The notes beneath the pieces are model-generated. The model saw only the letters and a list, made by a program, of their open reading frames with translations. It was not told the DNA's origin and ran no database searches. From Chloranthus sessilifolius (Eukaryota; Streptophyta; Magnoliopsida; Chloranthales; Chloranthaceae), in the NCBI GenBank assembly GCA_021018995.1, contig CM037588.1:145285725-145349724 (forward strand): 64,000 bases of DNA, written 5' to 3'. Below are positions 1,412-60,864 of this stretch, piece by piece. Both the position numbers and the translations under genes were made by a program. Every line of letters starts with the position of its first letter. The first letter of the stretch is position 1.

Positions 1412-4011
1412 TGTGACAGCCCGGATTTCGGCACCCCGAAACCCGTGCCATCAGCACGATCATCTTGACCGTGCCCCTTAACTATGCACGGAACACTGGT
1501 ATATCAAGCATAAAAAGAAGTAAGAACAACTCGCGGAATTTAAATTTAATTAGAAATACTTTTCAAAAGACAGTTCTACCCTCATGCCCCTACATGAAGG
1601 GAGAACCGATCCGAACCATCGATGATATAAATCATCACAGATGGTTCGCCCCAAAGGAATAATCCAAACTCTATACATATACATGTTTTCACAAAATAAA
1701 GGCTTGACATACCAAGCCGTACAATCTCTACTCAAAACTCCTCAAAGTAGCACAACGGAGTCCTCTAGAAGAAGTCCTCTGGAGGTGGCTCCAACTCCTC
1801 GGCCAAGAAAGTCCGATCACGGGATCGTCCCCTGAAACCTCGGCAGCTGCTACTAATGGACCTGCGACGTATAGTCTATAGGGTGAGCTACATCCTAGCC
1901 CAATAGGGAACAAACACTGCTGAACATATAAGTTATAACTCACATATATTCTATGACATACCATGCATGATGTAACTATGCAGTTGTTGATAAAACAGTT
2001 AAAAGCATTCGTTTACTGTTGATTTCTTATGTTTTCATTTACTCATGAAAAATGCTGAAAAGGCCTAAAGCAAAACTTAAACTTTCAACTAAGTAATCCC
2101 GAGCAATATAGCATCGAGCCCCGATGAGCTACCCTTCATCGTCATCTATATAGAGCGGTTTTAATGTATTCCACAGGAATACCATATAGTACCAAGCCCC
2201 TTTCCCTGGGATTGGTGGCGGGGTTTCACTTATCTCAATCAACACCCACGGGTGTGCTTACTATGTCGGATAAGCCTCCTTGACCGCCTACGGTTTCGCC
2301 AGACAGTATCGGTCACGGATATCCCGCCGTGTCGATCGTGGATATCCCGCCACGTCGGTGGGGTAACCTAAGGAACCTCAAATAACAAAATATATTTGCC
2401 TTACATATAGTTATTCACCGTGTAAGTGTGCTATCTTATATCAGTTAGGCCCTATCAAACATGATTCAATCTGTGGATACATCCCTGGGATGTATCCATT
2501 AACTTGCATCACACCTGATGCTCTTATTTCTTTACTTCTTCATCCCCTGGGGATGGCTCATTCGTTTACTCTTATGAATGTCACACACACACTTTTCACA
2601 ATTCTTTGAGCAAGAAAATAATTGAATTGTAATTTATATCACTACATACATGCTCTTGTAAAATAAAGTACATGTTCAGGGTGTTCCCTACCTCAAGTCT
2701 TTACTTGTTCAATGCATCAAGGTCCCACGTGGCTCCTTGTGCACTAGCTTACACGTACCACCTATGTTACCACATAACAGGTGAAACACATCACAAAGGA
2801 TGTAATAAAGAAGGTATAAGATGCTCCAAGAATCTTAAAGTCATACCTAAAAGCCAACAAAAATTATCCCAGTCGATTAATCCTAATCCAGAATCGAATA
2901 ATCGAACCTGGTTCGATTAATCGATTTCCAAAATCGATTAATCGAAGGTCAATATCGATTAATCGAAGTAATTTCGATTAATCGAAATTCTTCTTTTCGC
3001 AAAGTAAACTCCTTTGTTCGAGCAATGAGTTTCCGTTCGATTAATCGAATCCGATTTGATTAATCAAATTCTTCTTCCATAAAGTACACCCTCTTTGTTG
3101 AGCTTGAGTTTTCATTCGATTAATCGAATCCAGCCGATTAATCGAATTTCTTCTTTTCGCAAGGTACACCCTACTGTTAATAGCTTGAATTTCGATCCCA
3201 AATCGATTAATCGAAAACTCAAATCGATTAATCGAAATCCCATTTCGATTAGTCGATTTTCATAAATCATTTCCTCCAACCCTTGGGGTCCACCGAAGTT
3301 CGATCGATTAATCGATTCTCAAATCGATTAATCGAATCAAATTCGATTAATCGAAATCAATTCGATTAATCAAGTCGGGTCTTCGACCTTTCAACTTCTC
3401 GCCAATTTCGATTAATGACCCAATTTCGATTAATCGAAATTGTCGATTCAACTTTCATTTGTTCTTCCCAATCTTTTTCCCACACTTTTTCCTCTATTTT
3501 TCTAAGCCATTATCCTATGATCTAACCCACATTTAACCACAACTTAACCCCTATGATCTATGCATCTTATTTACAAGAATTTACCTTGGATAGATCTCAA
3601 GTTGATTTCTATCGCTAGTTGGAAGGCTAGGGTTTCTAGCTTTGGCTCTAACGGATCCCTTGCGTCGAATCCGGCCTCCTTAATGCTTGACTCTTCTTCC
3701 AAACAGTTGCAATAACTCTTCTCTCACTCCTCTCTCTTTCTCTCTCTTCTTTACTTCTTTCAACCACAAAAACATGAAAGTTAGGGTTTTCACCCTTTTT
3801 ATCTTATTTCTTTTCTCATGTGGAACACATACACACCCTCTGTATGTTACTCTACACACCCTCTATCTCTCCACTCTTCTACACTGGTTCACACATCACA
3901 TCCGCTCATCTCACTTTAAGTTCATCTTTGAACTATCTTATGGTCAAACCTAAGACCAATCGGGCACGGATCCCGAGGTCATAGTTTAACGTGATTTTTA
4001 GGGCTATTACA
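1412..4011 (-). repeat. Element B 3' LTR
   Basis: It reads TGTAATAGCCCTAAAAA... to ...GGGCTGTCACA on the - strand, with TG/CA ends, and matches 11418-14094 over its length. It contains a CT/GA-rich tract near 3720-3765 and a dense array of TCGATTAATCGA palindromes at about 2861-3455. The ORFs inside it (for example 2672-2920 and 3687-3953) recur in the other LTR but look like chance reading frames. Confidence 0.93.
2861..3455. repeat. TCGATTAATCGA palindrome array in B 3' LTR
   Basis: About twenty copies of the perfect 12-bp palindrome TCGATTAATCGA and close variants, spaced 10-60 bp apart, often extended to AATCGATTAATCGAAA. The same array is in the upper LTR (about 12864-13532) and, outside any LTR, upstream of B's ORF2 (about 5937-6400). 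Degenerate copies often differ at the CG (TTGATTAATC, GATTAATCAA). Confidence 0.9.
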
Positions 4012-4024
4012 TCCTCCCCACCTT
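4012..4024 (-). other. Element B polypurine tract
   Basis: On the - strand AAGGTGGGGAGGA directly abuts the 3' LTR (TGTAATAG...). This is the expected site of plus-strand DNA priming and it confirms the - orientation of the element. Confidence 0.85.
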
Positions 4025-4029
4025 GGGAA

Positions 4030-4045
4030 TTTTCGTCCTCGAAAA
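4030..4045 (-). other. Small stem-loop just upstream of B polypurine tract
   Basis: Six-base arms TTTTCG/CGAAAA around a four-base loop. Elements A (39371-39386) and D (50870-50885) have the same structure at the same place. It is followed by the conserved AATTCC and then the polypurine tract. Confidence 0.55.
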
Positions 4046-4309: not shown

Positions 4310-5703
4310 TCATGCGGGCCCCTCGCTAGGTCGGGTCCGGCAGGAGCCGGCTCGGTCATGTGGAAGGGTCTCTGTCACGGAGTAGATGTGGATGTGGAGG
4401 AACGCGTCTGGTGGTGGGATGGAAGATCGTCCTCTATGGAAGGCGGTGCGTCCGGCCGTCACTCTTCTTTCAGCCAACATATCCATGTAGGTGTGGGGTA
4501 GATGTGTGAAACATGAGGAAATCAATCCTCCTGTTCATCCTCTCATTATTTGCGTCCATTCTGGCGAGCACGTCCTCTATGGTAGGACCGGATGGAGTGG
4601 CGCGCCGGCGGTAGGATGAGGTGGGAGTCGCGGGCGCGGAGTGTGCAGGTGGTGTCGGCGTGGGAGGAACCTCTCCATGGATGGCTCGGTGGGTGTGCCC
4701 CACCCTCAAGTGGGTCCTGCGAGGTGGTGGGGGTGGTGGCGGTGCTACACCGGGCTTTCTTTCCGCTTTCTTCTTTGGGGAGACTTTGTGAATGTCTTCA
4801 CGCGATCGTAGCCCTCACCTCGTGAGGTGAGATAGTGTAGAGGATCGTTGAGTAGCACTCCAACATGCTTGAGATGAGCCGAGCATACGGCATCTTCCCC
4901 TTGGGCCGCATGTTGCCCTTCATCAGTTTAGTCTTGATGTACCGCATCCCCTCAAGGATGACCTTGGTAGCATCAAACCACCGGCCACAGAAGGCCGCGT
5001 AAAGTGCATGTTGCACTTTGTCGACACGCTCAGTGTCGTGGCGCATCGGGTAAAGGTTGCATTTGATTATGGAGTCGAGCATCCACATGTAGGGTGGAAG
5101 ATCAACCCTCTTGATGGAAATGCCCTTCTTGCCATTTGTCATGAGGGTCATGACTTCCTCAAATCGGGGGTCTTCCACAAAGGGTGGAAATAGGGTAGTC
5201 TCGGGGGTGAACTCGAGGTAGCACTCGAGCACCTCGTGAATGTGACGCCGAGTGATCGTGTAGAGACGACCCTCGATCTTGGTGATGATGCAGTCGTCGG
5301 TAGGGCCACTGGTTAGCCCTTGGTAGAATAATCTCACCAATCTAGGGTAGTAGGAACCCCGGATTGGTTTGAGAAGATTGCCGAGACCGGCATTGTTTAT
5401 GTAGTTTTGAGCCCATTGGGTCTCGCCCGTTGGGTCGATGGTATATTCGACCTCAAAGGTCTTGGCTGCCCACCACTCGTTTGGTTGCTCCACGTTGGTG
5501 GGTGGTGGTGGCATGGGGGTGGATTCGCGGGAAGACTCGCGCGTAGATGCGCTCGTCGAACCGGAGGTGGTCTCCGATTCCGACGGTGTCGGAGTCCTCA
5601 CCGGCGATGGGGTAGGTGGTGGTGGTGCGGCGTTCTTACGCCTAACCGGCAATTTGGAGGTTGCCTTCTTCGAAGACAAACGGGTTTTGGGCGGCATTTT
5701 CAC
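4310..5703 (-). pseudogene. Element B accessory ORF2 (sense strand, env position)
   Basis: An extra gene in the same sense as pol, between integrase and 3' LTR. A 301-codon frame is open from 5703 to 4798 (a second in-frame ATG at 5697 gives MPPKTR, matching the start in A). It then continues in shifted frames to about 4310. The N-terminus is basic and Pro/Ser/Thr-rich (about residues 1-75). It is followed by a conserved globular part with PNEWW, a YPRLVRLFYQ motif, a W-LD...LYP..H segment and MPYARLIS. Elements A and D carry homologues. The pattern resembles the 'putative plant transposon protein' domain of plant genome annotations (from memory, not searched). No catalytic motif is evident and I do not assign a function. 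It lacks the signal peptide and membrane segment expected of an Env protein. Confidence 0.75.
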
Positions 5704-5936
5704 TAAACTAGGGTTTATCTACTTCTAATGAAAGAAAAAGTTCGATTCTAGGGTTTACCGTGGTTTTCGAAGGCGAATACGGTAGATTGTGGGCGCGAAT
5801 CGGCGGAAAACCCAAACCCTAGAGCACTCGGTTGGTTGGAGAAGAAGGAGAAGATGAAACGCCCAAAAATCCCAAGCCAAATGATTTCGAATGGGAAATG
5901 AAATCCCCAAATTTATTTATATAGCCATGCTCGACA
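5704..5936 (-). promoter_or_regulatory. Candidate internal promoter and leader of B ORF2
   Basis: Reading on the - strand, TATATAAATA lies at 5914-5923, directly after the palindrome array and about 210 nt before the ORF2 ATG. A leader follows with CT-rich stretches (CTTCTCCTTCTTCTCC) and several telo-box-like CTAGGGTTT/AAACCCTAG motifs, which are common in plant 5' UTRs. This suggests ORF2 is expressed from its own promoter rather than only by read-through from the LTR. Confidence 0.6.
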
Positions 5937-6400
5937 TCGAAATTCCATTTCGATTAATCGAAATTCAAACCTGGGTTAAGCCGCGTAAAATCGATTAATC
6001 GATTTTCCAAGTCGATTAATCGAAAATAGAATTGAATTAATCGAAAATATTTCGATTAATCAAATCGTGTTTGTTTAAAAATTTAAAATGTTGAGCTCAT
6101 CGGCGTACGACGATTAATCGAAATTCATTTCGATTAATCGAAATCTCAAAATCGATTAATCGAACTTAGTTTCGATTAATCGAAATCGTGCAAAAACTTC
6201 AAAAATTTTCCAAAATTTCCTTAAGTATTCGATTAATCGAAATCCCATTTCGATTAATCGAAATTCCTTTCTATGCATTTTCTAACTCAACTTTTCATTT
6301 CCAGTCACTGGCACATGCCAGTCGACTACTCGAACAAGATCGATTAATCGAAATTCCAAATCGATTAATCGATTTGAAATTCGATTAATCGATTTTGCCC
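5937..6400. repeat. TCGATTAATCGA palindrome array upstream of B ORF2
   Basis: About 15 copies of TCGATTAATCGA or one-base variants between the end of pol and the ORF2 promoter. It is the same motif family as in B's LTRs but lies in unique internal sequence, so it is not explained by LTR duplication. Confidence 0.9.
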
Positions 6401-11417: not shown

Positions 11418-14094
11418 TGTGACAGCCCGGATTTCGGCACCCCGAAACCCGTGCCATCAGCACGATCATCTTGACCGTGCCCCTTAACTATGCACGGAAC
11501 ACTGGTATATCAAGCATAAAAAGAAGTAAGAACAACTCGCGGAATTTAAATCTAATTAGAAATACTTTTCAAAAGACAGTTCTACCCTCATGCCCCTACA
11601 TGAAGGGAGAACCGATCCGAACCATCGATGATATAAATCATCACGTATGGTTCGCCCAAAGGAATAATCCAAACTCTATACATATACATGTTTTCACAAA
11701 ATAAAGGCTTGACATACCAAGCCGTACATAATCTCTACTCAAAACTCCTCAAAGTAGCACAATGAGTCCTCTAGAAGAAGTCCTCTGGAGGTGGCTCCAA
11801 CTCCTCCAGAAAGTCCGACTCACGGGATCAGTCCCTGAAACCTCGGCTGCTACTAATGGACTGCGACGATAGTCTATAGGGTGAGCTACATCCTAGCCCA
11901 ATAGGGAACAAACACACCGAACATATAAGTTATAACTCACATATATTCTATGACATACCATGCATGATGTAACTATGCATGTTGATAAAAACAAAGCTTA
12001 AAAGCATTCGTTATCGTTGATTTCTTATGTTTTCATTTACTCATGAAAAATGCTGAAAAGGCCTAAAGCAAAACTTAAACTTTCAACTTAAGTAATCCCA
12101 GCAATATAGCATCGAGCCCCATGAGCTACCCTTCATCGTCATCTATATAGATAGCTTTAATGTATTCCCGAATACCATATAGTACCCAAGCCCCTTTCCC
12201 CGGGATTGGTGGCGGTTTCACTTATCTCAATCAACACCCACAGGGTGTGCTTACTATATGTGATAAGCCTCCGCTGCCTACGGTTTCGCCAGATATCGAT
12301 CACGGATATCCTGCCGTGTCGGGCCGTGGATATCCCGCCACGTCGGTGGGGTAACCTAAGGAACCTCAAATAACAAAAATATCGGTGCCTTACATATAGT
12401 TATTCACCGTGTAAGTGTGCTATCTTATATCAGTTAGGCCCTATCAAACATGATTCAATCTGTGGATACATCCCTGGGATGTATCCATTAACTTGCATCA
12501 CACCTGATGCTCTTATCTCTTTACTTCTTCATCCCCTGGGGATGGCTCATTCGTTTACTCTTATGAATGTCACACACACACACTTTTCACAATTCTTTGA
12601 GCAGTAAAAATAATTGAATTGTAATTTATATCACTACATACATGCTCTTGTAAAATAAAGTACATGTTCAGGGTGTTCCCTACCTCAAGTCTTTACTTGT
12701 TCAATGCATCAAGGTCCCACGTGGCTCCTTGTGCACTAGCTTACACGTACCACCTATGTTACCACATAACAGGTGAAACACATCACAAAGGATGTAATAA
12801 AGGAGGTATAAGATCCTCCAAGAATCTTAAAGTCAAACCTAAAAGTCAACAAAATTTATCCCAGTCGATTAATCGAAATCCAGAATCGATTAATCGAACC
12901 TGGTTCGATTAATCGATTTCCAAAATCGATTAATCGAAGGTCAATATCGATTAATCGAAGTAATTTCGATTAATCGAAATTCTCCTTTTCGCAAAGTCCA
13001 TTCTCAGTTCGAACAGTCGAATTGTCATTCGATTAATCGAATCACTTTGATTAATCGAAATTCTTCTTTTCAGAAGTAAACTCACCGCTTGACGATTGAG
13101 TTTCCGTTCGATTAATCGAATCCAGTTTCGATTAATCGAAATTCTTCTTTCCGCAAAGTACACCTACTGTTCGAACAGTTGAGTTTTCATTCGATTAATC
13201 GAATCCAGTTTCGATTAATCGAATTTCTTCTTTTCGCAAGGTACACCTCTTGTTGAGCGATTAATTTCACGATCCCAAATCGACATCGAAAACTCAAATC
13301 GATTAATCGAAATCCCATTTCGATTAGTCGATTTTCCTAAATCATTTCCTCCAACCCTTGGGGTCCACGAGGTTCCCGATGATTAATCGATTCTCAAATC
13401 GATTAATCGAAATCAAATTCGATTAATCGAAATCCAATTCGATTAATCAAGTCGTGGTCTTCGACCTTTCAACTTCACAGCCAATTTCGATTAATGAAAC
13501 CCAATTCGATTAATCGAATTGTCGATTCAACCTTCATTTTATTCTTCCCAATCTTTTTCCCACACTTTTTCCTCTATTTCTCTAAGCCATTATCCTATGA
13601 TCTAACCACATTTAACCACAACTTAACCCCTATGATCTATGCATCTTATTTACAAAAATTTACCTTGGATAGATCTCAAGTTGATTTCTATCGATAGTTG
13701 GAAGGCTAGGGTTTCTAGCTTTGGCTCTAACGGATCCCTTGCGTCGAATCCGGCCTCCTTAATGCTTGACTCTTCTTCCAAACAGTTGCAATAACTCTTC
13801 TCTCACTCCTCTCTCTTTCTCTCTCTTCTTTACTTCTTTCAACCACAAAAACATGAAAGTTAGGGTTTTCACCCTTTTTATCTTATTTCTTTTCTCGGTG
13901 TGGAACACATACACACCCCTCGGTGTATGTTACTCTACACACCCTCTATCTCTCCACTCTTCTACACTGGTTCACACATCACATCCGCTCATCTCACTTT
14001 AAGTTCATCTTTGAACTATCTTATGGTCAAACCTAAGACCAATCGGGCACGGATCCCGAGGTCATAGTTTAACGTGATTTTTAGGGCTATTACA
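11418..14094 (-). repeat. Element B 5' LTR
   Basis: Partner of 1412-4011, with the same TG/CA ends and the same palindrome array (about 12864-13532). It should contain the element promoter. A purine-rich GAGAGAAAGAGAGAGG stretch (reverse strand near 13800-13830) resembles the region that follows the TATA box in the D/E LTRs, but I cannot place a clear TATA box here. Confidence 0.93.
12864..13532. repeat. TCGATTAATCGA palindrome array in B 5' LTR
   Basis: Over twenty copies of TCGATTAATCGA and variants. Most are shared in position with the 3' LTR array, and a few differ by small indels. Confidence 0.9.
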
Positions 14095-14099: not shown

Positions 14100-15058
14100 G
14101 AAGAATATGTGTAAACCAAACTCAGTTGTATTGAAATTCTGTGTTGAGCTCTAAAAATTTGAATATGGTGTGTAAAATTAAATGGAGCAATATAGAGGTC
14201 TAAATGAAAGATTGATGCGTAATTGGTAGGTCGATGAGCTAATACCTAAATGGATTGGCAAATGAGGATGATCTAAGAATAACATGATCAATCACGCTAT
14301 GAAGGATTACCTTTTTAGTGTGAATAGGAACTAGTTCATTAAGGGATTTCAAGGACATGTAAAAGCGACCTCAGCTCCATTTTTGGGAATTCGTTTGATC
14401 GAAATTGAAGTCGTTCGATTGAATTTCTATAGGTTAAGGCCTAAAGTGTTTCCAGGAAATTGTTCGATCGATTTTAAAATCATTCAAACAAAATATTATG
14501 GCCAGTGGGAGTCCAAGCTATTGCCAGGAAGTCGTTTGATCGATTTTCAAATCATTCAAACGAAATGGATGGACCAGTAGAGTGAAAAATAGCCTAGAAG
14601 TGAGGTTCAACAAATTGTTTGATCGAAATTAGAAATCGATCGAACGAAATGTTAAGGACTACTTTAATTAATGAAATTCGTTCGATCAGAATTAGTATCT
14701 GATCGAACAAAATTTGGGGATTTCATTTAATGTGTAAAAATCGATCGAACGAATTTAAAATCGTTCGATCGATTTTGGAAACTATATATTGGCATGAGAT
14801 TTTTTTTTTTTGTCATTCATTCCACAACCAAGTTCTTTTTGTTTTATTTCCTCTTGGAGAAGTCTAGGGCTTGCAAGGGTCATCGGCTTTAGCAAATTCC
14901 GGCCATCTCCAAGCTCGGATTAGCACGTGAACAACTCCTCATAACGCGAAGAGGTAACCACTAACCTCTCTTAGGTCATTGGAATTTCAAATTTTGATTC
15001 ATACCCTAGTGTTAGAGAAATTTGGGCAAAACCCTTGCCCAAAATCCTTTGTAACCGT
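14100..15058 (+). promoter_or_regulatory. Element A pol-ORF2 spacer with motif array and TATA box
   Basis: Continuation of element A after the B insertion. From about 14385 to 14776 it contains about ten CGTTCGATCGATTTT-like motifs (variants CGTTTGATCGAAATT, ATCGATCGAACGAA), in both orientations. The same motif family fills part of A's own LTR (40063-40322). TATATATT (14783-14790) follows the last copy immediately, about 270 nt before the ORF2 start. A possible 5' splice site (GAAGAG/GTAACC, near 14951) lies in the leader. No ORF of note is present. Confidence 0.65.
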
Positions 15059-15621
15059 ATGAAAATTACAATGCCACCTAAAACTCGCCAAGCCACCGCA
15101 AGTGCTGCACCAAAGAAACCCACTACAGGTTCCTCTTCACAACCACCATCGAAGAAACCACCGACGGGTTCTTCGTCTGCACCACCTACACAGTCACCGC
15201 CCCCATCACCTCCACATGAATGACCCAACGAATGGTGGGCTGATAAGGACTTTGAGCCTGAATGGATCATAGATCCTAAAATTTTCGCCAAGCGAGACGA
15301 AACACATTGGGCGTTCAACTATATTTCCACGGCAGGTTTGACCGGGATACTCCGCCCGTGTAAGGATAGTTTTTACCCCCGAATAGTGAGACTATTCTAT
15401 CAGAACATGGAATTGGTCACAGACCTGACCATCCTGAGAACCAAAATAGAAATTGAACCTATGTGAAGTTGATTAAGAAGCCACCAGTCAAAGACCCACC
15501 ACAGCCGAAACCACAAACTCAAGACCAGCCACCACCTGATGCTCCTATCCCTGATGAGCCAACTGCTACCTTTCCACTTCAGCAGTGTGCCAGGCACCGT
15601 CTACAGACGCAAGCACCACCC
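15059..15621 (+). pseudogene. Element A accessory ORF2, 5' part (split by element C)
   Basis: Homologue of the ORF2 genes of B and D. It starts at ATG 15059 (an in-frame ATG at 15071 gives MPPKTR as in B), with a Pro/Ser/Thr-rich N-terminus. A TGA at about 15221 comes just before the conserved PNEWW block, followed by FYPRIVRLFYQNM at about 15375-15410. Relative to B and D the middle of the domain is missing: the frame jumps from TKIE to a Pro/Gln-rich segment near 15463. The gene is then cut by the LTR of element C at 15622 and resumes at 38525. Confidence 0.75.
15617..15621. repeat. Target-site duplication of element C (left copy)
   Basis: CACCC before TGTAGACACCC; repeated at 38520-38524 after the 3' LTR. 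Confidence 0.8.
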
Positions 15622-16005
15622 TGTAGACACCCAAATTTGGCCCAAGGCCCGATCGAAACACCTTTTGAGAGAGGTGCAATTCTAAGCTTTTGATGGCATA
15701 TATGGAACCCTTAGGAATCACCCCAGACCCTTAGAAATCACCTTAGATCCCTTAGGAACCTACCTCGAACCTTTAGAACCCATTCCGAACCCTAAACCTA
15801 ACCTTCCCAGGCAATGGATGAAGAATGGTGCACCAGGACTGGCTGAGGTCTTATACTAATATCAAATCATATACCACCAGAGAGAGGGCTTCTCCAGCTT
15901 TCCAATGAGCTAAGAATCACCCCAATCAGAGGTGTACATCGAAAGATATGGCAATCCGAATCCCAGGGGCATAACTATAAATTCACTTAGGCCCCCCTAG
16001 GGATT

Positions 16006-16209
16006 TGGCGCAACTAATAGTTGCGCCAGGCATAATTTTGCCTAGCACAACTATTAGTTACGCCATGCCAATTTCCCAGGATTTTAGCCTGGCACAACTA
16101 ATAGTTATGCCAGGTTTAACAGTGGGCCCCACCATCGTGAGCTCATTTCCAGGCACGGCTCTTCACTGTTTTACTGTACATTTGCCTGGCGCAACTATTA
16201 GTTGCGCCA
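16006..16209. repeat. 11-bp-arm inverted repeats in C 5' LTR
   Basis: Four copies of a 23-bp site: arm TGGCGCAACTA, one central A or T, and the exact complementary arm TAGTTGCGCCA. Copies at 16006-16028 and 16187-16209 are perfect. Copies near 16042 and 16091 carry G-to-A or C-to-T changes at the CG. They lie about 290-495 bp upstream of the LTR TATA box. Confidence 0.92.
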
Positions 16210-16500
16210 GGCATATGAACAGTAACCGTTGGGTTTTGCCTCGAAGTTCGAGATTTGGGTTTGACTTGTTGACCATCTTAATCTTTGGGGTGTGTTTTGA
16301 TAGTTCTGTTGCACCCTCCGCACCCATTCCTTACCTATTTACAACCCTCCAAGTGGCTTAAAGCCTCACCCCATCATCCACCATTAGAACCACCTTCACA
16401 CGTTTCCAAGCTCTCAAAATCTTAGGAAACCTTAGCTTTGAGATTACCTAATTGCTAACCCCAATTAGCATTTAAGTAGCCTCCTAATCCACCCTTTTCC

Positions 16501-16508
16501 TATAAATA
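16501..16508 (+). promoter_or_regulatory. TATA box of element C LTR promoter
   Basis: TATAAATA after a pyrimidine-rich stretch (CCACCCTTTTCC) and before GAGCCCCCC. It is conserved at 37787-37794 in the 3' LTR. Transcription would start about 30 bp downstream. Confidence 0.7.
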
Positions 16509-17292
16509 GAGCCCCCCTCCCCTTGGTTTAAGGGTTGAGAATTTTACTTAAGAGAGATAAAGCTCTAAGTGAGAAGTTCTTCCTCCCTTTGGTGCACTAT
16601 TTTCCCTCAAAATTCTAGAATTCCAAAACCTCTTCCAAGCTTGTTCTTACTTCAAAAACACATAGCCTAGGTGTGTGTGATCCCCTAGCCTCCCTTCCGC
16701 CTCCTGTAGCTAGTAAGCCTTAGTAGTTAGAACTCGTTTTTCTACCATCCAAGCCTTCAAAAGCTCCTCTAAGCAAGCCACGCAAGGCTCTCCTACTGTG
16801 CTACAAGGGCCCGAGGGCTCCGGCTCTCTCCTTTCCTCTCCTATCACTTTTTGGCATTCCTCTACCCTCTCATTTGGGCCATTACACCGTCGAATTTTAG
16901 GTAGGAACGGAGGGACACAAATAGCATTGGAGGCCCATTTGGGCAAGAGGGAACCATTTCCTTTTCTCTTAATCTATTTTATTTTTAGCTATTAGTAGAG
17001 ACCGCGGTAAGCGGGTTGATCGTGTGCCTAACACCTTCCCGATCGATAACCGATGCCCCTACCCAAGAGCCTTTGAACACCGAAAGCTCCGGGTGGCAAC
17101 TCTATTTTTTTCGTTAGGGAGCGCATTGTCGCGACGGGATCATCAAAAATCCCACGGTTGCACAGATGTAGAGCTTCCCCTTGAACTTGGCCTTATTTTT
17201 TTATATTTTTACTAACATGTTATTGCTGTTTTTTTAGTGTATTTTTGCTTTTTTACTCACCCCACCGATTAAGTCGTTTTACTTACCCCTAC

Positions 17293-17480: not shown

Positions 17481-17984
17481 CATAATCCACCAGTGGACGC
17501 CGGCCCGTAGTGGCGGCACGGAATAATCACCCTCGGTCTTTGAACTAAAGAAAACTTCCAAAAAAAAGAAAAGCTTTGAAAAAAATTAAAATTGAACCAA
17601 GTTAGGGAGCTTAATTAATTTATTTTACGGGATAGATTTTAAAAGGGGTTGGATTAGGCAAACATATAAACACCCGAGTCTTAGTATGGCGGCAGCCCCT
17701 AGTGGTGATGATCCAGAAAAGTCCTAGCCTACCTAGTATTTGAGAAGGCGCTTGCGCCGGAGGTATATCGGGTGGGTTCCCATTTCGAAGCTTAAAACCC
17801 TTGGGGAGTGCGCTAGTGAGTTATACCAGACTCAAGCCAGTTAGGTGCGATAAGGAGCGGATCGAACACTAAAAAATAGCTCAGTTCCCGGAAGCCTAGC
17901 TTCCACAAAAACCAAAAAAAGAGACTCATTTCGGGTGTTGGTGGCTGCTGTCAAACAATCTGAAAGCTCTATTTTTGGCTGGTG

Positions 17985-18150
17985 CATGTATTAGTTGCGC
18001 CAGCACAAAAAGCTGGCATTTATAATTGGCGCAACTAATAGTTGCGCCAGCTTTAAACTCTAGACTTTTACCTTGGCGCAATTAATAGTTGCGCTAGTGT
18101 AAAAAGGGTCCCCTGCAACCTGGGCGCATGTATTAGTTGTGCCAGGTCTG
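17985..18150. repeat. Inverted-repeat motif group upstream of C gag
   Basis: Four copies of the TGGCGCAACTA/TAGTTGCGCCA site. The copy at 18027-18049 is perfect; those near 17985, 18074 and 18123 are degenerate. It lies about 0.5 kb before gag and outside the LTR. Confidence 0.88.
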
Positions 18151-39404: not shown

Positions 39405-39576
39405 TGTAACGTCCCAAAAATTTCTATGCTTAAATAGTGCACCTCGAGAAGTGGACTCAACTAGTTGTTTGTTTGACCGGGTCAATATTGACTTGATTGA
39501 CTTAGGTTGGTTAGTTTATGTTGCTTAGATCATGTGTGAGTGGTGGAGTTATGTATAATAGAAAAAGCTTAGTTGG

Positions 39577-39578
<2 letters not shown>

Positions 39579-39630
<52 letters not shown>
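39579..39630. repeat. (TA)n microsatellite
   Basis: About 26 TA units in the element A LTR, at the place where a TATA box would be expected. Confidence 0.95.
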
Positions 39631-39634
<4 letters not shown>

Positions 39635-40062
39635 CACTTCGTTAGTTGTAATGTTTTACACCCAAGTTAAATTATAGGTTATAAGAAAGGGGGAAGGGAA
39701 TTTATTTCCCTTGAGAGGGTTGTTGAGAAAGTTAAGAGAGAGTAAATGAGAGGGAGATGTTGTTGAGAACGGCGTATTAAATACGAATGATTGATCTGGG
39801 ATCAGAAAGCTAACGGATTTGCGCTTGGTATCGAGGAGAGATTCAAGATTTGGGGGTTTATGAAACCCTTGCATGGCTAGAATTTTGGATCAAAGGATTC
39901 AACTGTTGGAAATGGTAAGCTCTACTATTTTAAACTAGTTTTGGTTGCTAGGTTAAAAATCTAAGTGATTTTATTAGAGAAATAGATAAAGAATGTTGTG
40001 GATGAAGATGAGATGAGTTCTAGATGATAGAACTTGATCTGCATTGGAAATGGGCAAAATCA

Positions 40063-40322
40063 ATGGAACGAAATTAGTACTCGTTCAATCGATTTTGACC
40101 AATGAAGAAAGAAGAGAAATAAGGAACCTGAAGAAATCGATCAAACGATTTCAAAATCGTTCGATCGATTTGTGAACCTGTGTGAATGAAATAAAAATTG
40201 TTCGATTGGTTTGCTAGGGACAAGAATTAGGTGTAATGGATTTCTAAGGAAATCGATTGAACGAAATAAAATAGTTCAATCGATTTTTCAAATTGTTCGA
40301 TTGATTTAAAATCGTTCGATCG
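40063..40322. repeat. CGTTCGATCGATTTT-like motif array in A LTR
   Basis: About ten copies of (A)TCGTTCGATCGATTTT and variants, in both orientations. The same family lies in the spacer upstream of A's ORF2 (14385-14776). Confidence 0.85.
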
Positions 40323-41840: not shown

Positions 41841-42070
41841 ATAGACCGTCATTTGTTTCATCAAAATAACGACTGTCTTCGACTATTGACCCCAAACAAC
41901 AGTTTTGAGCTATTATTTTTTGTCATTTAAAAAAAAAAAAACACTCACCCCATTTTTTTTACGACTCATTATGACTGTCATTTTTCTCTCATAAAATGGT
42001 GGTCATAGATGGGAAGAAGAACGACGATTTTCGATCGTCATTTATATATATATATATATATAATACATTA
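41841..42070 (+). mobile_element. CACTA-like subterminal region, cut by element A
   Basis: Right flank of element A. Repeated short motifs (ACCGTCATTT, AACGACTGTC, ACGACTGTCATTTT, GACGATTTTCGATCGTCATTT) resemble the subterminal repeats of plant CACTA transposons. The terminal CACTA itself would lie left of element A, outside the window, so the assignment rests on motif style. It ends in a short (TA)n. Confidence 0.4.
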
Positions 42071-43357: not shown

Positions 43358-43654
43358 CTAGCACAAGGAAGAAACAATCATTACCTAGCTCCAAGTAAAG
43401 TGGTTGCACCAGTAACTCAAATAATGACAAAAAAAAATATCATTTAAGTTTATTCCCCAATGAAGTTTAAAAAGAATAACTATTGCAAAAGATTGTTAAT
43501 TTTCAAGGCGAAGAGTAGAGTTCATCAGACTGTATTTTGTTGCTTCCACCTCAAAACTCTTAAAAATTAAACATGACTATAGCCAGAACAAGAGTATAAG
43601 AAAATCAAATAAAGATTCAAGAAGGTGCCAAAATAAACTATGAAATGATTTCTT

Positions 43655-44370
43655 TAGGTCTTTCTGTAGGTCGTGCCTGGGTTCACGTGTGCAAGGGTTG
43701 GGCTCCTCCCAAACTGTCCTTTTTTGGTTGGAGCCTAACTTGGGGGAATATTCTTAGTATGTATAAGTTTATTAGAAAATGGAAAAGAATGAGATATAGG
43801 TGTATCATGTGTCTCCAAGAGGAGGGGACAGCTAACCATCTTTTCATTCACTGCTGCATTACGAAGGATATTTGGAACTTGGTCCTTAACACATTCAATG
43901 CCATTTGGGTTTTCCATTATTCTTGTGGGGACCTGATGGTGACATGGGACCGCGGTGGTTTTGTTGGGCTTAAAAATGCTTTTTGGAAAAATACTTTATG
44001 GGCTCTCATTTGGGCTTTGTGGTTCGAAAGGAATGATAGAATCTTCCATAAAATGAGGAGGCCCACGGCGATGATCATGAATGTCAAGGATTGGACTCTT
44101 AATGGGTTGTCCTGAATAGGGATGAGATTCATGATAATAGTGGGGAGCTTATCAAGGGGTGGGAGGATCTGCCATGAGTCTGCGACATGCCTGATCTGGG
44201 TGGGGTACCCTAGTCTGCCTCTCTTGCCTAGCTACTCCTTGCTTTTTCCTAGGTCTTTTGGTTTTTCCTTTTGGGTTGAGCATGTTGTGCTCTCTCATGA
44301 TTTGGGATCTTGTTGCGGTAAAGTTATGTACTCTTCTCTCTTTTAATATAATATTGCTTAAAAAAATAAA
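43655..44370 (+). mobile_element. L1-type LINE 3' end with RT zinc-binding domain
   Basis: The open frame to 44115 encodes the zf-RVT region found at the C-terminus of plant L1 polyproteins: APPKLSFFGWSLTWGNIL, then C-x2-C (RCIMCLQEEGTANHLFIHCC), then WALIWALWFERNDRIF. It is followed by about 230 bp of 3' UTR and an A-rich tail (TTAAAAAAATAAAA at about 44357-44370). The RT and endonuclease parts are absent, so it is 5'-truncated, the usual fate of LINE insertions. Confidence 0.8.
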
Positions 44371-48584: not shown

Positions 48585-50851
48585 CGTGACGACCCGACTT
48601 TTCCAATCCCTAAGGTATAGGAAAGGCCGGTTCATCAACTTATTGATTTCTCAATAAGCCGTAACAAACAGAAGCCGGCAACATAAACAAAGGTCTAAAG
48701 ACAGAGGCAACATTGTTAATCCAAAAACAAAAGCTTCATATAATAAAATTAGATATATCACTGTGAGGAACCAAAAAGAACCACCGGTGATGGCCAATCC
48801 GATCACCTAAAATAGAGGTTCACAATAATGGTTCCTCGAGTGATATCTAAAGATAAAAAAATAATAGCCTAAGGCTCAACAATCCAAAAATAATATCCAG
48901 ACAAAATACCAAAAATATACAGAATCTAAGATCACGGGAAAAACTCCTCAGCTGGTATGTCCAAATCCTCCTCGGGAATATAATCGGAGTCCTCCGGATC
49001 CTCTGACCCAAGGTCAGTCTCAGCACCTGTGACGTATAGTCGAGGGTGAGCTAACAGCCAAGCTCAATAGAGGAAGACAGATCTATTTGCATTTCTTTAT
49101 AAGTAAAGGTTTTCAAAAGATGGAATCGGATCAAATATGGTTTTTCAATGATGCTTTTCAAATTAAATCTCCAGTTCTAATCCTGAGTCAAAACTGATAA
49201 TAAAATCTAAAGTGTTCAAAATGTTCTGATTTAGCATGCTTCTTGTCTTAAATTTATAACTTAATTTTATCTCCCAAATTTCCTATAGCATGAGAGCAGA
49301 CTACGTGACCGATGGGAAGACCCTACTGACCATTGTCGTTCATGAACTCATTTCGAAAATGCAACAAGCCCCTACGCTATGAGGGAAACTTGCGCCAAAG
49401 TTTTACCGTCAACACAGTTGGTAGAATCTAGGGCATCGTACTTATGAACCCAAAATCAAATGCAAATGCTAACACATATCCAAGCTTATTATTCATATCA
49501 TATACTGATTTTTCAAAGTTCTGATTCGAAGTTCTGATTCAAAATTTAACTGAGGTTCTGATTCAAAATTTAACTGAGGTTCTGATTCAAATTTAGCTGA
49601 GGTTCTGATTTCCAATGATTCTTATTTATGACAGGGTTTACAAATTTTTCGGATTGTATCATATGTTCAAAGTTTTAATTACACTGTGTGCAACGAAATT
49701 TCCATATTTTATGCTTCTAAAATAAAATGATTTATAACAGTTTATGCTTATAAATTCATGCAAATAAAAACTAGGATTCCCCTACCTTATCCAAGAAAAT
49801 TCAAAAGCATGAACAAGCAGTCCTCTCTAAGGACTCCCAATTGTCAAAACCTACATATATTAACACCCTCAGTATTAATATAGAACCCAAAAATCAACCC
49901 AAAAGCTCACAAAATAAAAATCCAATCAAATATTTAAAAGCCAAAAGCTGGACAGAATTTGACCATCGATTTCAAATTCGATGGTCGAATTCGAAATTCG
50001 ATGGTCGATTTTAAATTCGACCATCGAATTTCAGAACTCTGTTTAAAGCTTAAAATCTTATTTTCGACAGTCGATTTCCAATTTCGACAGTCGATTTTGA
50101 AATCGACGATTAATTTCCTTCGTGGTATTAATTTCAACATGCGGATTCTTTTCATCATTTTCTACACAGCCATTCAATCCTTTCTATTGAATCCAAATCT
50201 TAATTTCTTAACAAAACCCAATAAATTTACATAAGGAGGTTTCAAGGCATACCTCTTGTAGCTTAATCTGTTGATCCCCTTATACCGATTCACGCACCGG
50301 AACAAGCTTCTATGATTGAAGGTTTAAAAGTTTCAAGTCAGCCCATTATAACCCTTCTTCCATTGCACAGATCCTAACAACACAGTGATATCCTCTCCTC
50401 TAACCTTCTCTTCCAATATCTCAAACTGATCCAATTTCAAATACCAAATAAACCAATGGTTGAGATGGGAAGAGGAGCTCTCACTATCTTAAGATCTAAA
50501 GATCAAAAGCAGCCCAATTAGTTTGCAATTGACTTTCAACCGAAAGAGAGAAGTGTAAATTCTCTCAAATCTCTCTCTCTTTATAATATAAAACAAAACC
50601 TACTAAAAATCTAGATATTTATAATTACTACTTATCTACTTAAGTTTAAACATTATCCGGTGTTACACACAAACACCAATGCTATTGTGTGAGTCATAGA
50701 TTACATGACTTGCACACTTCTTAAAACGAAATCCTTATACCAAAAGTCTTATCATAGACTTAGATTACCAAAAATAAAAAATAGTCCACTATTTTTCGGA
50801 CACGCTTATCGAGGTAAACGAAAATAGGTCAAAAATATCAGGGATATTACA
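48585..50851 (-). repeat. Element D 3' LTR
   Basis: Reads TGTAATATCCCTGATATTTTT... on the - strand. A TATA-like TATATTATAAAGAGAGAG lies near 50571-50590. The motif array TCGATGGTCGA/TCGACAGTCGA is at 49960-50110, in the presumed transcribed leader. Confidence 0.92.
49960..50110. repeat. TCGATGGTCGA/TCGACAGTCGA motif array in D 3' LTR
   Basis: At least seven short inverted-repeat motifs: ATTCGATGGTCGAATT and its complement form GACCATCGA, then TTCGACAGTCGATTT. The same two submotifs, in the same order, lie upstream of ORF2 at 53026-53172 and in the 5' LTR at 59980-60115. Confidence 0.9.
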
Positions 50852-51471: not shown

Positions 51472-52734
51472 TCACCGTATCCTCCACAGCGCAGAAGGCA
51501 TGCTAGTACCAGCGCCCGATGTCGAAGGACGATATACTGAAGCACGGATATCGGCCATATACGTCGTGTAATCCTCTGGAAATGCGTGCTGCATCAAATA
51601 AGAGAGGGCGCCGCCATGGACATCCAACTCTTGACGCATAGAGCTGGTGTGGTGGGTGAGCTCTTGAATTTGATGGCTCATGGCGGTCATCTGTCGGGTG
51701 AACTCGGAGAGTGTAAGGACGTCACTCTGTGGGGGCTGAGGAGGTGCAGCGGTAGTAGTGTTAGGGATAGAATGAGTGGGGTCATCATCATCCTCACTAG
51801 CAGTATCAGGTGCCTCTGCATCCTTTGGAGTCTTTACCAACCTACTGTAGGTTTGACCCCAATTGACCAAGTTATAAATTTTTCGACCCGCTGTGGATTT
51901 GGGTTCAGTAGGAGGGATATCATAAGCAGGGCCCGCTCGGTAGTTCTCAATCATCACTGAAATTAAGCGAGCATAGGGCATAGTCTTCAATGGTTTCTTC
52001 ACATGTTTACCCATTTTCTCTCGGGCTTTAATAATCCCTTTGAAAAGGACGTCAGGAGCACTAAACCATCGCTCCTTATAGGCCGCAAAAAGAATTTGTT
52101 GGAGGGGACCGGTGCGCTCAGATTGATGACCAAAAGGGTAAAGGGTGGTCTTTAAAATTTTATCCAAGATCCACATGGTCTCCGGCATATGGACCGTGAC
52201 GATGGATTTACCGGACCCATGATAGCCTTGCGTCATTTGTGTAATTACATCCTCGAAACGAACCGGTTTGGGGAAGGGAGGACCTAGACCCATGGTTTGT
52301 GAGTGATTTAAAGGGCATCGCAATGCCACAGCCATGTCCTCTAGATCAAAAGTATAATCGCGGTCATCAATCTCCGTATAGATTCTTTTCCCGTCTTCGC
52401 GGCTCATGTGCTGATAAAATAGGGGCACGAGTCGGGGATAGAAATGGTCGCTAAAGGATGTGCACAGGGAGGTCAATTTGGCCTTTTCAAGGTATTCACC
52501 CGCCCATTGTGTGGTTGTTTGTTGATCAAACAACTCCGGGTGAAACAAATATTCCGTAGTGAAGCCTTTAATGCTCCAAAATTCGTTGGGTTGCTCAGGC
52601 AAGGGAGAGACAGTGGGTGGTGGAACCGATTGTGGTGGTTCTGTGGGCTGTTTTGTGCGGCTTGTAGACGCAGCTTTAGAAGCTAGTCTTTTTGAGGTGG
52701 GATTCCTAATGGGGGTTTGCTTCTTAGGGCCCAT
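51472..52734 (-). CDS. Element D accessory ORF2 (intact, 420 codons)
   Basis: A fully open gene in the env position, sense to pol. The start MGPKKQTPIRNP matches the basic MPPKTR-type starts of A and B. Domains: a basic, Ser/Pro/Thr-rich N-terminus (1-45); a conserved globular part (about 46-290) with PNEFW, FYPRLVPLFYQHM, METMW-like PETMWILDKIL, LYPFGHQSER, RWFSAPDVLFKG and MPYARLISVMIENY; an acidic linker (about 310-330, ASEDDDDPTH); a probable helix/coiled coil (about 345-385, TRQMTAMSHQIQELTHH); and an end with STSGAG. No signal peptide, membrane segment, zinc finger or catalytic triad is seen. It resembles plant 'putative transposon protein' domains. The function is unknown; a nucleic-acid-binding or regulatory role is an inference. 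Confidence 0.85.
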   Translation of the reverse strand: MGPKKQTPIRNPTSKRLASKAASTSRTKQPTEPPQSVPPPTVSPLPEQPNEFWSIKGFTTEYLFHPELFDQQTTTQWAGEYLEKAKLTSLCTSFSDHFYPRLVPLFYQHMSREDGKRIYTEIDDRDYTFDLEDMAVALRCPLNHSQTMGLGPPFPKPVRFEDVITQMTQGYHGSGKSIVTVHMPETMWILDKILKTTLYPFGHQSERTGPLQQILFAAYKERWFSAPDVLFKGIIKAREKMGKHVKKPLKTMPYARLISVMIENYRAGPAYDIPPTEPKSTAGRKIYNLVNWGQTYSRLVKTPKDAEAPDTASEDDDDPTHSIPNTTTAAPPQPPQSDVLTLSEFTRQMTAMSHQIQELTHHTSSMRQELDVHGGALSYLMQHAFPEDYTTYMADIRASVYRPSTSGAGTSMPSALWRIR

Positions 52735-53725
52735 TCAAACAAAATTTAAAAGAAAAACCCACAAAATGCAAGAAAACAGGGATGTACAGAGAATATAGCA
52801 AGGGTTACCTTGTAAAAAAGTCCCCAAATCGGTTTTGCAAGGATTGAAATATGCTCCCCTTGTGAAATGTAGTGAAATCCCCTTTGGAATGCGGCCAAAA
52901 ATTGAAGAGGAAGCTCTAAAATCCCCAAATCGCCCGAAACCCCTCAAAACCCTAAGCTCAAAACCCCTAAAACTGGAACCCGAAATGCCAAATAGTTTTA
53001 AACCCCCAAACTTAAATCGAGAAAATCGATGGTCGATTTCAAAATCGATGGTCGAATTCGAAATTCGATGGTCGATTTTCTCAGAACTTCTCAGGTTCTG
53101 TTTTTGGCCGAAAACTGGCTTGAAAACTCATAGAAATTCGATGGTCGATTTGGCATTTCGACAGTCGAATTGTTTTATACTGTTTTCTTTAAAAAATTTC
53201 AAAATTTTTGGAATTCCAAACATGCCCTTGGGTCTAAATGTACCTTCTTTGATCCCATTTTATTCCCATTACCTTATCGAACCTGGACCGTATTATCACA
53301 GCCGGAATTGGCATAGACAATTTAAGAATAGGCCAAGAAATCTTTTGACCAATTTATTTCACATCACCATTCGGAAAATAATAAGACCGGGTTTGGACGG
53401 GCTCGTAAAAGTTTTAGGATTTCTACAACATAACGCAATTAAAAGCTATAAATATGGACAAAATAATAGGTATATATATAGGGCCATGACATCAGTATCA
53501 AGGCCAAATTTACTTGGTAAAAATAAAGAAGTAGCTAACTATAGGCCAATTTTATGTCACATGGCGAGTGTAAGATACCAAGTGTAGGCCCAATAGTATT
53601 GAATTTTCCATAATGAAGTAATGCACATATATTGGACCGACAAAATTTTCTCGCCAAATCATCTGTATAAAATCAGTAATTACATAAAAATTCAAGAAAT
53701 CATACATTCAACACATAATGTCTCA
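52735..53725 (-). promoter_or_regulatory. Element D pol-ORF2 spacer: motif array, leader, TATA-like box
   Basis: On the - strand: a TATA-like TATATATATA at 53472-53481, the motif array at 53026-53172, then a leader with CTTAGGGTTTTGAG and GGGTTTCGGG, a possible donor (TACAAG/GTAACC near 52811), and the ORF2 ATG at 52734. Unlike in A and B, the clearest TATA box lies upstream of the array. The 250-codon + strand ORF (52835-53587) overlaps this region. It has no recognisable domain and I treat it as a chance frame. Confidence 0.55.
53026..53172. repeat. TCGATGGTCGA/TCGACAGTCGA motif array upstream of D ORF2
   Basis: Five copies of TCGATGGTCGA followed by one TTCGACAGTCGAATT. It is the same composition and order as the LTR array, in non-LTR sequence. 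Confidence 0.9.
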
Positions 53726-55174: not shown

Positions 55175-55208
55175 CTCTTCTGATTGCCATTAGCTCATCA
55201 TCGGTCAT

Positions 55209-58528: not shown

Positions 58529-58622
58529 CTGATCATCATTGTTAAACAAACAATAACAATTAGATCGAATTAATTGTTAGAAAAATCTAACCCCTAGTCC
58601 AAGACTCAAACCTAGAGCCATG

Positions 58623-58634
58623 CTCGATACCAAC
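58623..58634 (-). other. Element D primer-binding site (degenerate initiator Met type)
   Basis: On the - strand GTTGGTATCGAGCA follows the 5' LTR. It matches TGGTATCAGAGC with small differences. Confidence 0.65.
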
Positions 58635-60864
58635 TGATTTAATTCGACTTTTCCAATCCCTAAGGTATAGGAAAGGCCGGTTCATCAACTTTTTGATATC
58701 TCAATAAGCCGTAAATGTAATTTAAGAACATAAACAAAGGTCTAAAGACAGAGGCAACATTGTTAATCCAAAAACAAAAGCTTCATATAATAAAATTAGA
58801 TATATCACTGTGAGGAACCAAAAGGAACCACCGGTGATGGCCAATCCGATCACCTAAAATAGAGGTTCACAATAATGGTTCCTCGAGTGATATCTAAAGA
58901 TCAAAAAATAATAGCCTAAGGCTCAACAATCCAAAAATAATATCCAGACAAAATACCAAAAATATACAGAATCTAAGATCACGGGAAAAACTCCTCAGCT
59001 GGTATGTCCATATCCTCCTCGGGAATATAATCGGAGTCCTCCGGATCCTCTGACCCAAGGTCAGTCTCAGCACCTGTGACATATAGTCGAGGGTGAGCTA
59101 ACAGCCAAGCTCAATAGAGGAAGACAGATCTATTTGCATTTCTTTATAAGTAAAGGTTTTCAAAAGACGGAATCGGATCAAATATGGTTTTTCAATGATG
59201 CTTTTCAAATTAAATCTCCAGTTCTAATCCTGAGTCAAAACTGATAATAAAATCTAAAGTGTTCAAAATGTTCTGATTTAGCATGCTTCTTGTCTTAAAT
59301 TTATAACTTCATTTTATCTCCCAAATTTCCTATAGCATGAGAGCAGACTACGTGACCGATAGGAAGACCCTACTGACCATCGTGGTTCATGAACCCATTT
59401 CGAAAATGCAACAAGCCCCTACGCTATGAGGGAAACTTGCGCCAAAGTTTTACCGTCAACACAGTTGGTAGAATCTAGGGCATCGTACTTATGAACCCAA
59501 AATCAAATGCAAATGCTAACACATATCCAAGCTTATTATTCATATCATATACTGATTTTTCAAAGTTCTGATTCGAAGTTTTGATTCAAAATTTAACTGA
59601 GGTTCTGATTCAAATTTAGCTGAGGTTCTGATTTCCAATGATTCTTATTTATGACAGGGTTTACAAATTTTTCGGATTGTATCATATGTTCAAAGTTTTA
59701 ATTACACTGTGTGCAACGAAATTTCCATATTTTATGCTTCTAAAATAAAATGATTTATAACAGTTTATGCTTATAAATTCATGCAAATAAAAACTAGGAT
59801 TCCCCTACCTTATCCAAGAAAATTCAAAAGCATGAACAAGCAGTCCTCTCTAAGGACTCCCAATTGTCAAAACCTACATATATTAACACCCTCAGTGTTA
59901 ATATAGAACCCAAAAATCAACCCAAAAGCTCACAAAATAAAAATCCAATCAAATATTTAAAAGCCAAAAGCTGGACAGAATTCGACCATCGATTTCAAAT
60001 TCGATGGTCGAATTCGAAATTCGATGGTCGATTTTAAATTCGACCATCGAATTTCAGAACTCTGTTTAAAGCTTAAAATCTTATTTTCGACAGTCGATTT
60101 TGAAATCGACAGTCGAATTTCCCAGGCTCTGTGGCTGTTAATTTCAACATGCCCGGATTCTTTTTCATCATTTTCTACACAGCCATTCAATCCTTTCTAT
60201 TGAATCCAAATCTTAATTTCTTAACAAAACCCAATAAATTTACATAAGGAGGTTTCAAGGCATACCTCTTGTAGCTTAATCTGTTGATCCCCTTGTACCG
60301 ATTCACGCACCGGAACAAGCTTCTATGATTGAAGGTTTAAAAGTTTCAAGTCAGCCCATTATAACCCTTCTTCCATTGCACAGATCCTAACAACACAGTG
60401 ATATCCTCTCCTCTAACCTTCTCTTCCAATATCTCAAACTGATCCAATTTCAAATACCAAATAAACCAATGGTTGAGATGGGAAGAGGAGCTCTCACTAT
60501 CTTAAGATCTAAAGATCAAAAGCAGCCCAATTAGTTTGCAATTGACTTTCAACCGAAAGAGAGAAGTGTAAATTCTCTCAAATCTCTCTCTTTATAATAT
60601 AAAACAAAACCTACTAAAAATCTAAATATTTATAATTACTACTTATCTACTTAAGTTTAAACATTATCCGGTGTTAAACACAAACACCAATGCTATTGTG
60701 TGAGTCATAGATTACATGACTTGCACACCTCTTAAAACGAAATCCTTATACCAAAAGTCTTATCATAGACTTAGATTACCAAAAATCTAAAATAGTCCAC
60801 AATATTTTTCGGACATGCTTATCGAGGTAAACGAAAATAGGTCAAAAATATCAGGGATATTACA
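58635..60864 (-). repeat. Element D 5' LTR
   Basis: Partner of 48585-50851. The outer 12 bases at the internal edge are altered (TGATTTAATTCGAC where TGTGACGACCCGAC is expected). It contains the motif array at 59980-60115. Confidence 0.92.

Follow-up and report, generated by a model that had tools for sequence, protein, structure and literature searches.

Why would a retrotransposon carry one short repeated word in two separate places, inside its long terminal repeats (LTRs) and again in front of an accessory gene, and why would related elements of one genome carry different words there? These questions are raised by a 64,000-nt stretch of the Chloranthus sessilifolius genome (contig CM037588.1 of assembly GCA_021018995.1, positions 145,285,725 to 145,349,724; hereafter the window), which self-BLAST and the reading of LTR ends resolve into a nest of LTR retrotransposons, A to E. 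An earlier note on this DNA had proposed that four of these elements (A, B, C, and D) each bear a family-specific array of short inverted repeats both in the LTR and ahead of their accessory gene or genes, that duplication cannot explain the agreement, and that the arrays are cis-elements read by one factor. The arrays are present at the places given for all four elements, and the match between LTR and internal words is largely family-specific. To this we add the fixed slots of the arrays, a 19-21 bp spacing between neighboring sites, and TCGA half-sites enclosing a family-specific core. We judge it likely, if only just, that the arrays serve as platforms to which the accessory protein of the same element binds, and from which it would switch on the LTR promoter as well as its own gene.

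Elements A and C lie on the plus strand and B and D on the minus strand, and families A to D are each judged from a single copy in the window. Their arrays, together with two sites in E, are located as follows (listed without strand).

2873-3437: B 3′ LTR array, 18 sites of TCGATTAATCGA with at most 2 mismatches
5950-6392: B internal array, in the spacer between pol and the second open reading frame (ORF2), 15 sites
12865-13517: B 5′ LTR array, 20 sites
14391-14772: A internal array, 12 sites of TCGWTCGAWCGA with at most 3 mismatches, mostly as ~20-bp pairs
40060-40323: A 3′ LTR array, 9 sites with at most 3 mismatches
49959-50094: D 3′ LTR array, 6 sites of TCGAYRGTCGA with at most 1 mismatch
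53026-53168: D internal array, in the pol-ORF2 spacer, 5 sites
59982-60116: D 5′ LTR array, 6 sites
61720 and 61767: two D-like E LTR sites with another core, TTGAGGGTCGA and TCGAGGGTCGA, respectively
16006-16209: C 5′ LTR array, 4 sites like TGGCGCAACTAWTAGTTGCGCCA
17980-18144: C array before gag, 4 sites
30573-30771: C array upstream of antisense gene 2, 5 sites
34915-35029: C array upstream of antisense gene 1, 3 sites
37301-37504: C 3′ LTR array, 4 sites

These words are close to private to their arrays. The 64 kb contain 38 exact copies of TCGATTAATCGA, all of them in the arrays of B, where the 3′ LTR accounts for 12, the spacer for 11, and the 5′ LTR for 15; all 16 copies of the C core AACTAWTAGTT fall within the five C arrays, and all five copies of TCGACAGTCGA within those of D. 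Largely the same confinement is seen when mismatches are allowed, bearing out the claim that the motif differs between elements. The B word then has 61 sites, 53 of them in the B LTRs and spacer, two in the A spacer, three in the A LTR, and three as singles elsewhere. For D the LTRs and spacer hold 17 of 20 sites, for A the LTR and spacer hold 15 of 18 (with two in the B spacer and one in C), and for C all 20 lie in the LTRs and the three internal arrays. Block-shuffled windows (n=3) gave 1-5 sites for the B word, 0-6 for D, 0-1 for A, and 0 for C. A scan for palindromes of 10-30 bp with at least three copies in the 64 kb returned only TA runs, the array words, and one 10-mer of the D and E LTRs; the scan requires perfect arms, and therefore the A word and the D word TCGATGGTCGA cannot appear in it. 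The description of the motifs as inverted repeats is accurate for the palindromes of B and C, although several C sites are degenerate in one arm. It is too generous for A, whose word is a TCGA-centered quasi-palindrome, and for D, where TCGATGGTCGA is symmetric in its half-sites only. The C word is a 23-bp palindrome unrelated to those of A, B, and D.

Agreement between the two places was measured in sliding 300-bp windows, each scored by how many of its 10-mers recur in the LTR of the same element (B, n=142; D, n=150; A, n=60; C, n=389). The scores peak at the arrays, reaching 105-106 in B, 64-65 in D, 43 in A, and 57-60, 36-39, and 25-33 in C, against medians of 1-2.5, with at most 9 in the best listed windows clear of the arrays. 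In a spacer-by-LTR matrix of shared 8-mers, every own-family cell (11/11) exceeds the maximum of 500 shuffles, as expected if LTR and internal words agree within an element: 214 and 210 versus 98 for B, 148 versus 80 for A, 80 and 79 versus 38-40 for D, and 46/43, 78/73, and 52/51 versus 18-28 for C. Only 3 of the 37 other-family cells do so, namely the A spacer with the B 3′ LTR (99 versus 78) and the D spacer with both B LTRs (42 and 44 versus 36-37), and these excesses are probably due to the common TCGA half-site.

The arrays of A, B, and D share a grammar. Neighboring sites are separated by 19-21 bp in 11/17, 8/14, and 12/19 gaps of the three B arrays, in 4/5, 3/4, and 4/5 gaps of the three D arrays, and in 5/8 and 6/11 gaps of the two A arrays (5/7 and 4/9 at a stricter A threshold; P 2e-5 and 0.0024). 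Random placement in the same span yields a mean of 0.35-1.92 such gaps, with P ≤ 0.0011 for each of these eight arrays, under a null that leaves tandem duplication of units outside its terms. The D spacing was counted on script-defined sites, which replace an earlier subset without TCGAAATTCGA and weak overlaps. A general ~10.5-bp phase of the B spacings was also considered; it is weak for gaps above 30 bp, and the claim is therefore restricted to the 19-21 bp spacing of neighbors. The word takes the form TCGA-core-TCGA, with the core TTAA in B and YRG in D; the two E sites have the core GGG, one of them with a changed half-site, and stand 47 bp apart, like two sites of the D LTR. TCGA is more frequent than in all 300 dinucleotide shuffles in seven of the eight A, B, and D arrays, narrowly so in the A spacer (14 versus 13); the A LTR array, with 9, does not exceed its shuffle maximum of 10, and E equals its maximum. 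All five C arrays lack TCGA, and C sites are mostly 41-48 bp apart, with exceptions of 37 and 97.

The positions of the arrays are likewise fixed, relative to the following LTRs.

1412-4011, minus strand: B 3′ LTR, TG..CA ends and target-site duplication (TSD) TTTTT; 92-93% to 11418-14094 by self-BLAST, ends read
11418-14094, minus strand: B 5′ LTR, by self-BLAST, ends read
39406-41841, plus strand: A 3′ LTR, start inferred from TGTAAC, end TGTCACA
15622-17180, plus strand: C 5′ LTR, by self-BLAST, right end approximate
36897-38540, plus strand: C 3′ LTR, by self-BLAST, right end approximate
48586-50851, minus strand: D 3′ LTR, by self-BLAST, ends read
58645-60864, minus strand: D 5′ LTR, by self-BLAST
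60972-63097, plus strand: E 5′ LTR, sister family of D, by LTR comparison

In A, B, D, and E, a distance of 1319-1517 bp separates the LTR array from the 3′ end of the LTR; in A, B, and D, the ATG of ORF2 follows the internal array by 253-298 bp. Downstream of the array the LTRs can be aligned across families, with local scores of 47-256 for pairs other than D-E against shuffle maxima of 30-38, and the E LTR is a sister to that of D (84% over 1292 aligned bases); upstream of the array, clear alignment is confined to D and E. The ORF2 leaders and the stretches between pol and the array are not clearly alignable across families. Thus, related families use the same two slots for different words, and within each family both slots carry one word.

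Element A runs on the plus strand from a pol remnant at base 1 to its 3′ LTR end at 41841, and it is split by the insertions of B and C. Both B, flanked by the TSD TTTTT, and C are nested in this older element (1-41841), C within the A ORF2. Element E begins ~110 bp past D, in the opposite orientation.

Coding content was assessed by searching ten pieces of the window against Pfam. Reverse transcriptase (RT), RNase H, and the integrase zinc domain score above cut-off in D, with rve below it; the single piece queried for B gives RT and RNase H, and the single A piece gives a weak integrase-like match (E 0.035). We provisionally assign A, B, and D to the chromoviruses (Tekay/Del). Element C has RT, RNase H, and integrase, followed after its RT-RNase H by a second RNase H (RVT_3, PF13456, E 3.2e-14), presumably the mark of a Tat element, and gag is found in C and E. 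The ORF preceding the C RT ORF (22879-23829) contains a G-patch domain (E 3.7e-6). The accessory genes and the TATA-like boxes near them are as follows.

4801-5697, minus strand: B ORF2 (299 aa), Transposase_32-like (PF20167, E 2.3e-9, below cut-off)
51475-52734, minus strand: D ORF2 (420 aa, open), Transposase_32-like (E 4.8e-4, below cut-off), with a basic N terminus
15071-15620, plus strand: A ORF2 remnant (MPPKTR..., with in-frame stops), interrupted by the C insertion
28998-30410, minus strand: C antisense gene 2 (limits approximate), PMD-like (PF10536, E 1.5e-4, below cut-off), frames broken or intron-split
31846-33580, minus strand: C antisense gene 1 (limits approximate), PMD-like (PF10536, E 2.1e-5, below cut-off), frames broken or intron-split
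5917-5924, minus strand: TATA-like CTATATAA, between the B internal array and the ORF2 ATG
14783-14788, plus strand: TATATA, after the A internal array

Homologous ORF2 frames are present in A, B, and D, whereas C carries PMD-like genes. The B and D proteins, both encoded by open frames between pol and the 3′ LTR, are 40% identical over 247 residues; differences per codon position 1 to 3 are 0.49, 0.38, and 0.67, highest at the third, and synonymous sites are saturated. Their scores for PF20167, 37.8 bits for B and 20.5 for D against a curated cut-off of 45, make them Transposase_32-like only, and the 21.5 and 24.3 bits of the C antisense gene fragments against the PF10536 cut-off of 34.9 make these PMD-like only. 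A published tree divides Gypsy PMDs into two clades, A1 and A2 (PMC5418596). In C, TATA-like TATAAATAG follows the LTR array by ~300 bp; inspection of the D internal array by eye revealed no clear TATA-like box.

Several further features were noted beside these genes. B ORF2 stops before the point where D ORF2 ends, and a piece resembling the missing C terminus continues in another frame of the same strand (4470-4814, by eye). Splice-donor-like GGTAAC occurs at ~52805 in the D ORF2 leader, at 14955 in the A ORF2 leader, and at 34715 in the leader of C antisense gene 1 (by eye), and these leaders may contain 5′ untranslated region introns. The C gag region includes a stretch of tandem direct repeats (19461-19968, self-BLAST), and direct-repeat arrays at 33817-34030 and 35291-35536, near antisense gene 1, have zero counts of the C word. 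At 43600-44115, a frame resembles by eye the zinc-binding end of a plant LINE (long interspersed element) RT. Searches for relatives of ORF2 and of the words outside the window yielded little: 2297 candidate homologues of D ORF2 in a protein collection included none at E ≤ 0.001, and D ORF2 plus spacer found no match among plasmids. In viral contigs, neither the D RT piece nor D ORF2 had relatives, and the C word and the paired B word were both absent; prokaryote contigs contained no C word and three stretches of paired B word that were judged to be chance. Three weak PDB sequence matches (E 0.026-0.69) were judged meaningless.

Family-specific words in equivalent slots are what would be expected of cis-elements, and palindrome-like paired sites near TATA-like boxes have the appearance of upstream elements that a dimeric DNA-binding protein would recognize. 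The reading of the arrays as cis-elements is therefore supported. We infer the single factor, a good candidate for which is the accessory protein itself, because the class of word tracks the class of protein and the sites both precede its genes and lie in the LTR: one protein family goes with one half-site class, and the other with an unrelated word. In the mechanism we propose, a dimer of the accessory protein would read TCGA-core-TCGA sites, neighbors being about two helix turns apart. Binding to the LTR array would lift silencing from, or activate, transcription of the genomic RNA, and binding to the internal array would keep the accessory gene on, forming a positive feedback. Since each family has its own word, the factor might act on its own family while sparing the host and rival families, and word and factor might turn over jointly in evolution, following the pattern of VANC and VANDAL. 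The sign of the effect, activation or anti-silencing and not repression, is the least certain step. What is observed beneath this proposal is the position of the arrays, their family specificity, the 19-21 bp spacing in A, B, and D, and the conservation of slots with changed words. A broader tentative proposal is that two unrelated accessory families, Transposase_32-like in the chromoviruses and PMD-like in the Tat-type giants, independently became sequence-specific self-activators or anti-silencers with family-private palindromic codes, the chromoviruses having a fixed TCGA and 19-21 bp grammar with a swappable core, such that new families would escape by changing core and protein together; we consider this possible, while leaning against it.

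A number of observations weigh against self-recognition of this kind. One is that pieces of array have been copied locally between the slots, at least in B and D. When cores were masked and the linkers compared by shared 7-mers (also 8-mers) with letter shuffles, using liberal masks that leave little sequence, linkers in B shared more than chance (29 versus 9.9, P 0.001), and in D an identical 35-bp run with two sites, TCGATGGTCGAATTCGAAATTCGATGGTCGATTTT, occurs in both LTR and spacer. The earlier assertion that duplication cannot explain the agreement was therefore too strong. The long general homology that would make the motif part of one duplicated block is nevertheless absent from most comparisons, with linkers at chance in A (7 versus 3.9, P 0.16), D (2 versus 0.6, P 0.14), C gag (0 versus 1.0), and C antisense gene 1 (2 versus 0.7, P 0.17), and marginal in C antisense gene 2 (5 versus 1.2, P 0.03). 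Local copying may be the route by which both slots keep one word; alone, it leaves unexplained the slot position in related families and the spacing shared by three families. Further adverse points concern the proteins and their promoters. ORF2 contains no recognized DNA-binding domain, the Pfam matches of ORF2 and the C genes lie below curated cut-offs, an AlphaFold model of D ORF2, run with B, is unusable (predicted local distance difference test, pLDDT, 36), and a sunflower Tekay accessory ORF (aORF) of similar size is reported to resemble double-stranded RNA (dsRNA)-binding proteins, which would suggest another job (PMC11728184). The link between protein and word is based on two protein classes only, and the TATA-like boxes were chosen by eye, without a chance estimate. 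An array does stand before C gag, as had been claimed, but it lies ~1.5 kb downstream of the LTR TATA box, and hence in the presumed transcribed leader and not upstream of a promoter. Finally, with other CpG changes set aside, CpG to TG or CA transitions between paired LTRs are not rarer in the arrays than in the rest (B 6/45 versus 7/50, D 1/13 versus 4/35, C 4/8 versus 16/40), and the arrays are therefore without a footprint of hypomethylation.

How else might the same anatomy arise? Plant LTR U3 regions can hold repeated boxes for host factors, as in Tnt1, and host transcription factors, different for each family, might drive both the LTR and accessory-gene promoters while the accessory protein does something else. 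The TATA-like boxes adjoining two internal arrays suit this explanation, as does the likening of the Tekay aORF to dsRNA-binding proteins (PMC11728184). We think it unlikely, because a shared host factor would keep the word constant, whereas three related families in one genome fill equivalent slots with different words at a common preferred spacing, and because word class tracks accessory protein family (two classes only). Neutral repeat turnover, in which a unit arose once per element and spread without function by slippage, conversion, or template switching, draws on the copying in B and D described above and on the greater divergence of arrays relative to the rest of the LTR in these two elements (non-CpG, B 11% versus 2.7% and D 6.8% versus 1.7%, partly an effect of alignment), although not in C (6.5% versus 5.8%). 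Such turnover seems to us improbable in view of the chance-level linkers in A, D, C gag, and C antisense gene 1, the near absence of the word elsewhere in the same element, the recurrence of the slots in related families and of three internal places in C, and a spacing held despite different words (judged by a null without unit duplication).

The accessory protein might instead bind both arrays to limit copy number or recruit silencing. Such autorepression predicts the same anatomy equally well, and host PMD proteins are required for transposable element (TE) silencing (PMC5418596); a selfish element should, however, profit more from activation, and the precedents covered, VANC and Tas, activate, so that we regard repression too as rather unlikely. 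Least probable of all, and in our estimation very unlikely, is that the palindromes act as RNA or DNA secondary structures, forming hairpins for packaging, antisense control, or small-RNA production. When seven array pieces of ~148 nt from D, B, A, and C were folded as RNA, each proved more stable than its dinucleotide shuffles (z -3.0 to -8.4), but any set of palindromes gives such z-scores, and RNA structure is therefore inseparable here from palindromy. A single TCGATTAATCGA forms at most a 4-bp hairpin, and the C arrays stand upstream of genes on both strands, as would a strand-symmetric DNA site.

For self-recognition by the accessory protein, VANC proteins of the Arabidopsis VANDAL elements are the best precedent (PMC5735166, PMC10398659). 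There, the DNA bound by VANC21 consists of YAGTATTAY repeats in non-coding regions of the TE that encodes it, and other words are found in the targets of VANC6 (PMC5735166). In both systems, as far as those accounts describe, a TE-specific short word is repeated in the element's own non-coding parts, an extra protein is encoded, and the word differs among related families (here A, B, and D, with E judged by its LTR only). VANDALs, however, are DNA transposons, whereas the elements described here have LTRs, RT, RNase H, and integrase; the sites here are palindrome-like and paired, unlike the YAGTATTAY repeats; and the accessory proteins weakly match Transposase_32 or PMD (Pfam). The likeness drawn here is one of layout. 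The layout also recalls foamy viruses, whose Tas protein acts on the LTR and an internal promoter (PMC8670036, PMC4929722): here too a single word is found both in the LTR and ahead of the accessory gene, and we propose that it serves as a control site. This likeness is again one of layout, and the word here is visibly repeated and differs for each family.

Extra ORFs beside gag-pol are themselves known from plant Ty3/gypsy elements, including Tekay, where the 402-aa aORF is close in size to the 420-aa D ORF2 (PMC11728184), Retand, with antisense TRP28 ORFs between pol and the 3′ LTR and family-specific tandem arrays near the extra ORFs (PMC11963269), and Gypsy PMD-A1/A2 (PMC5418596). The passages at hand from these three sources report no word shared by the LTR and the region before the ORF, and more generally the portions covered of the literature on plant aORFs, VANC, and PMD contain no report of a word common to LTR and aORF promoter, which is weak evidence of absence. 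Genes whose promoters carry the 'DOWN' motif depend for their expression on the host PMD proteins MAIN and MAIL1 (PMC7156037, PMC9899485), which likewise ties a PMD protein to a short promoter word. DOWN (CATGCAGTTT, MORC1 promoter) differs from the C word, and in the sections of these papers seen, direct DNA binding is unproven there too.

The observation from which this analysis departed is confirmed and extended, and it bears on a question that the literature leaves standing: the job of the extra genes in Retand is stated to be unknown (PMC11963269), and whether the proteins of extra ORFs shape methylation is stated to be open (PMC12844716). If the arrays are what we suppose, each protein has a predicted DNA target written in its own element, and the question of function becomes one of binding and reporter tests. 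Sequence-specific self-recognition would then have arisen also in LTR retrotransposons, which make up a major part of plant genomes, and would not be a peculiarity of VANDAL elements; the PMD silencing genes of the host would be relatives of such factors.

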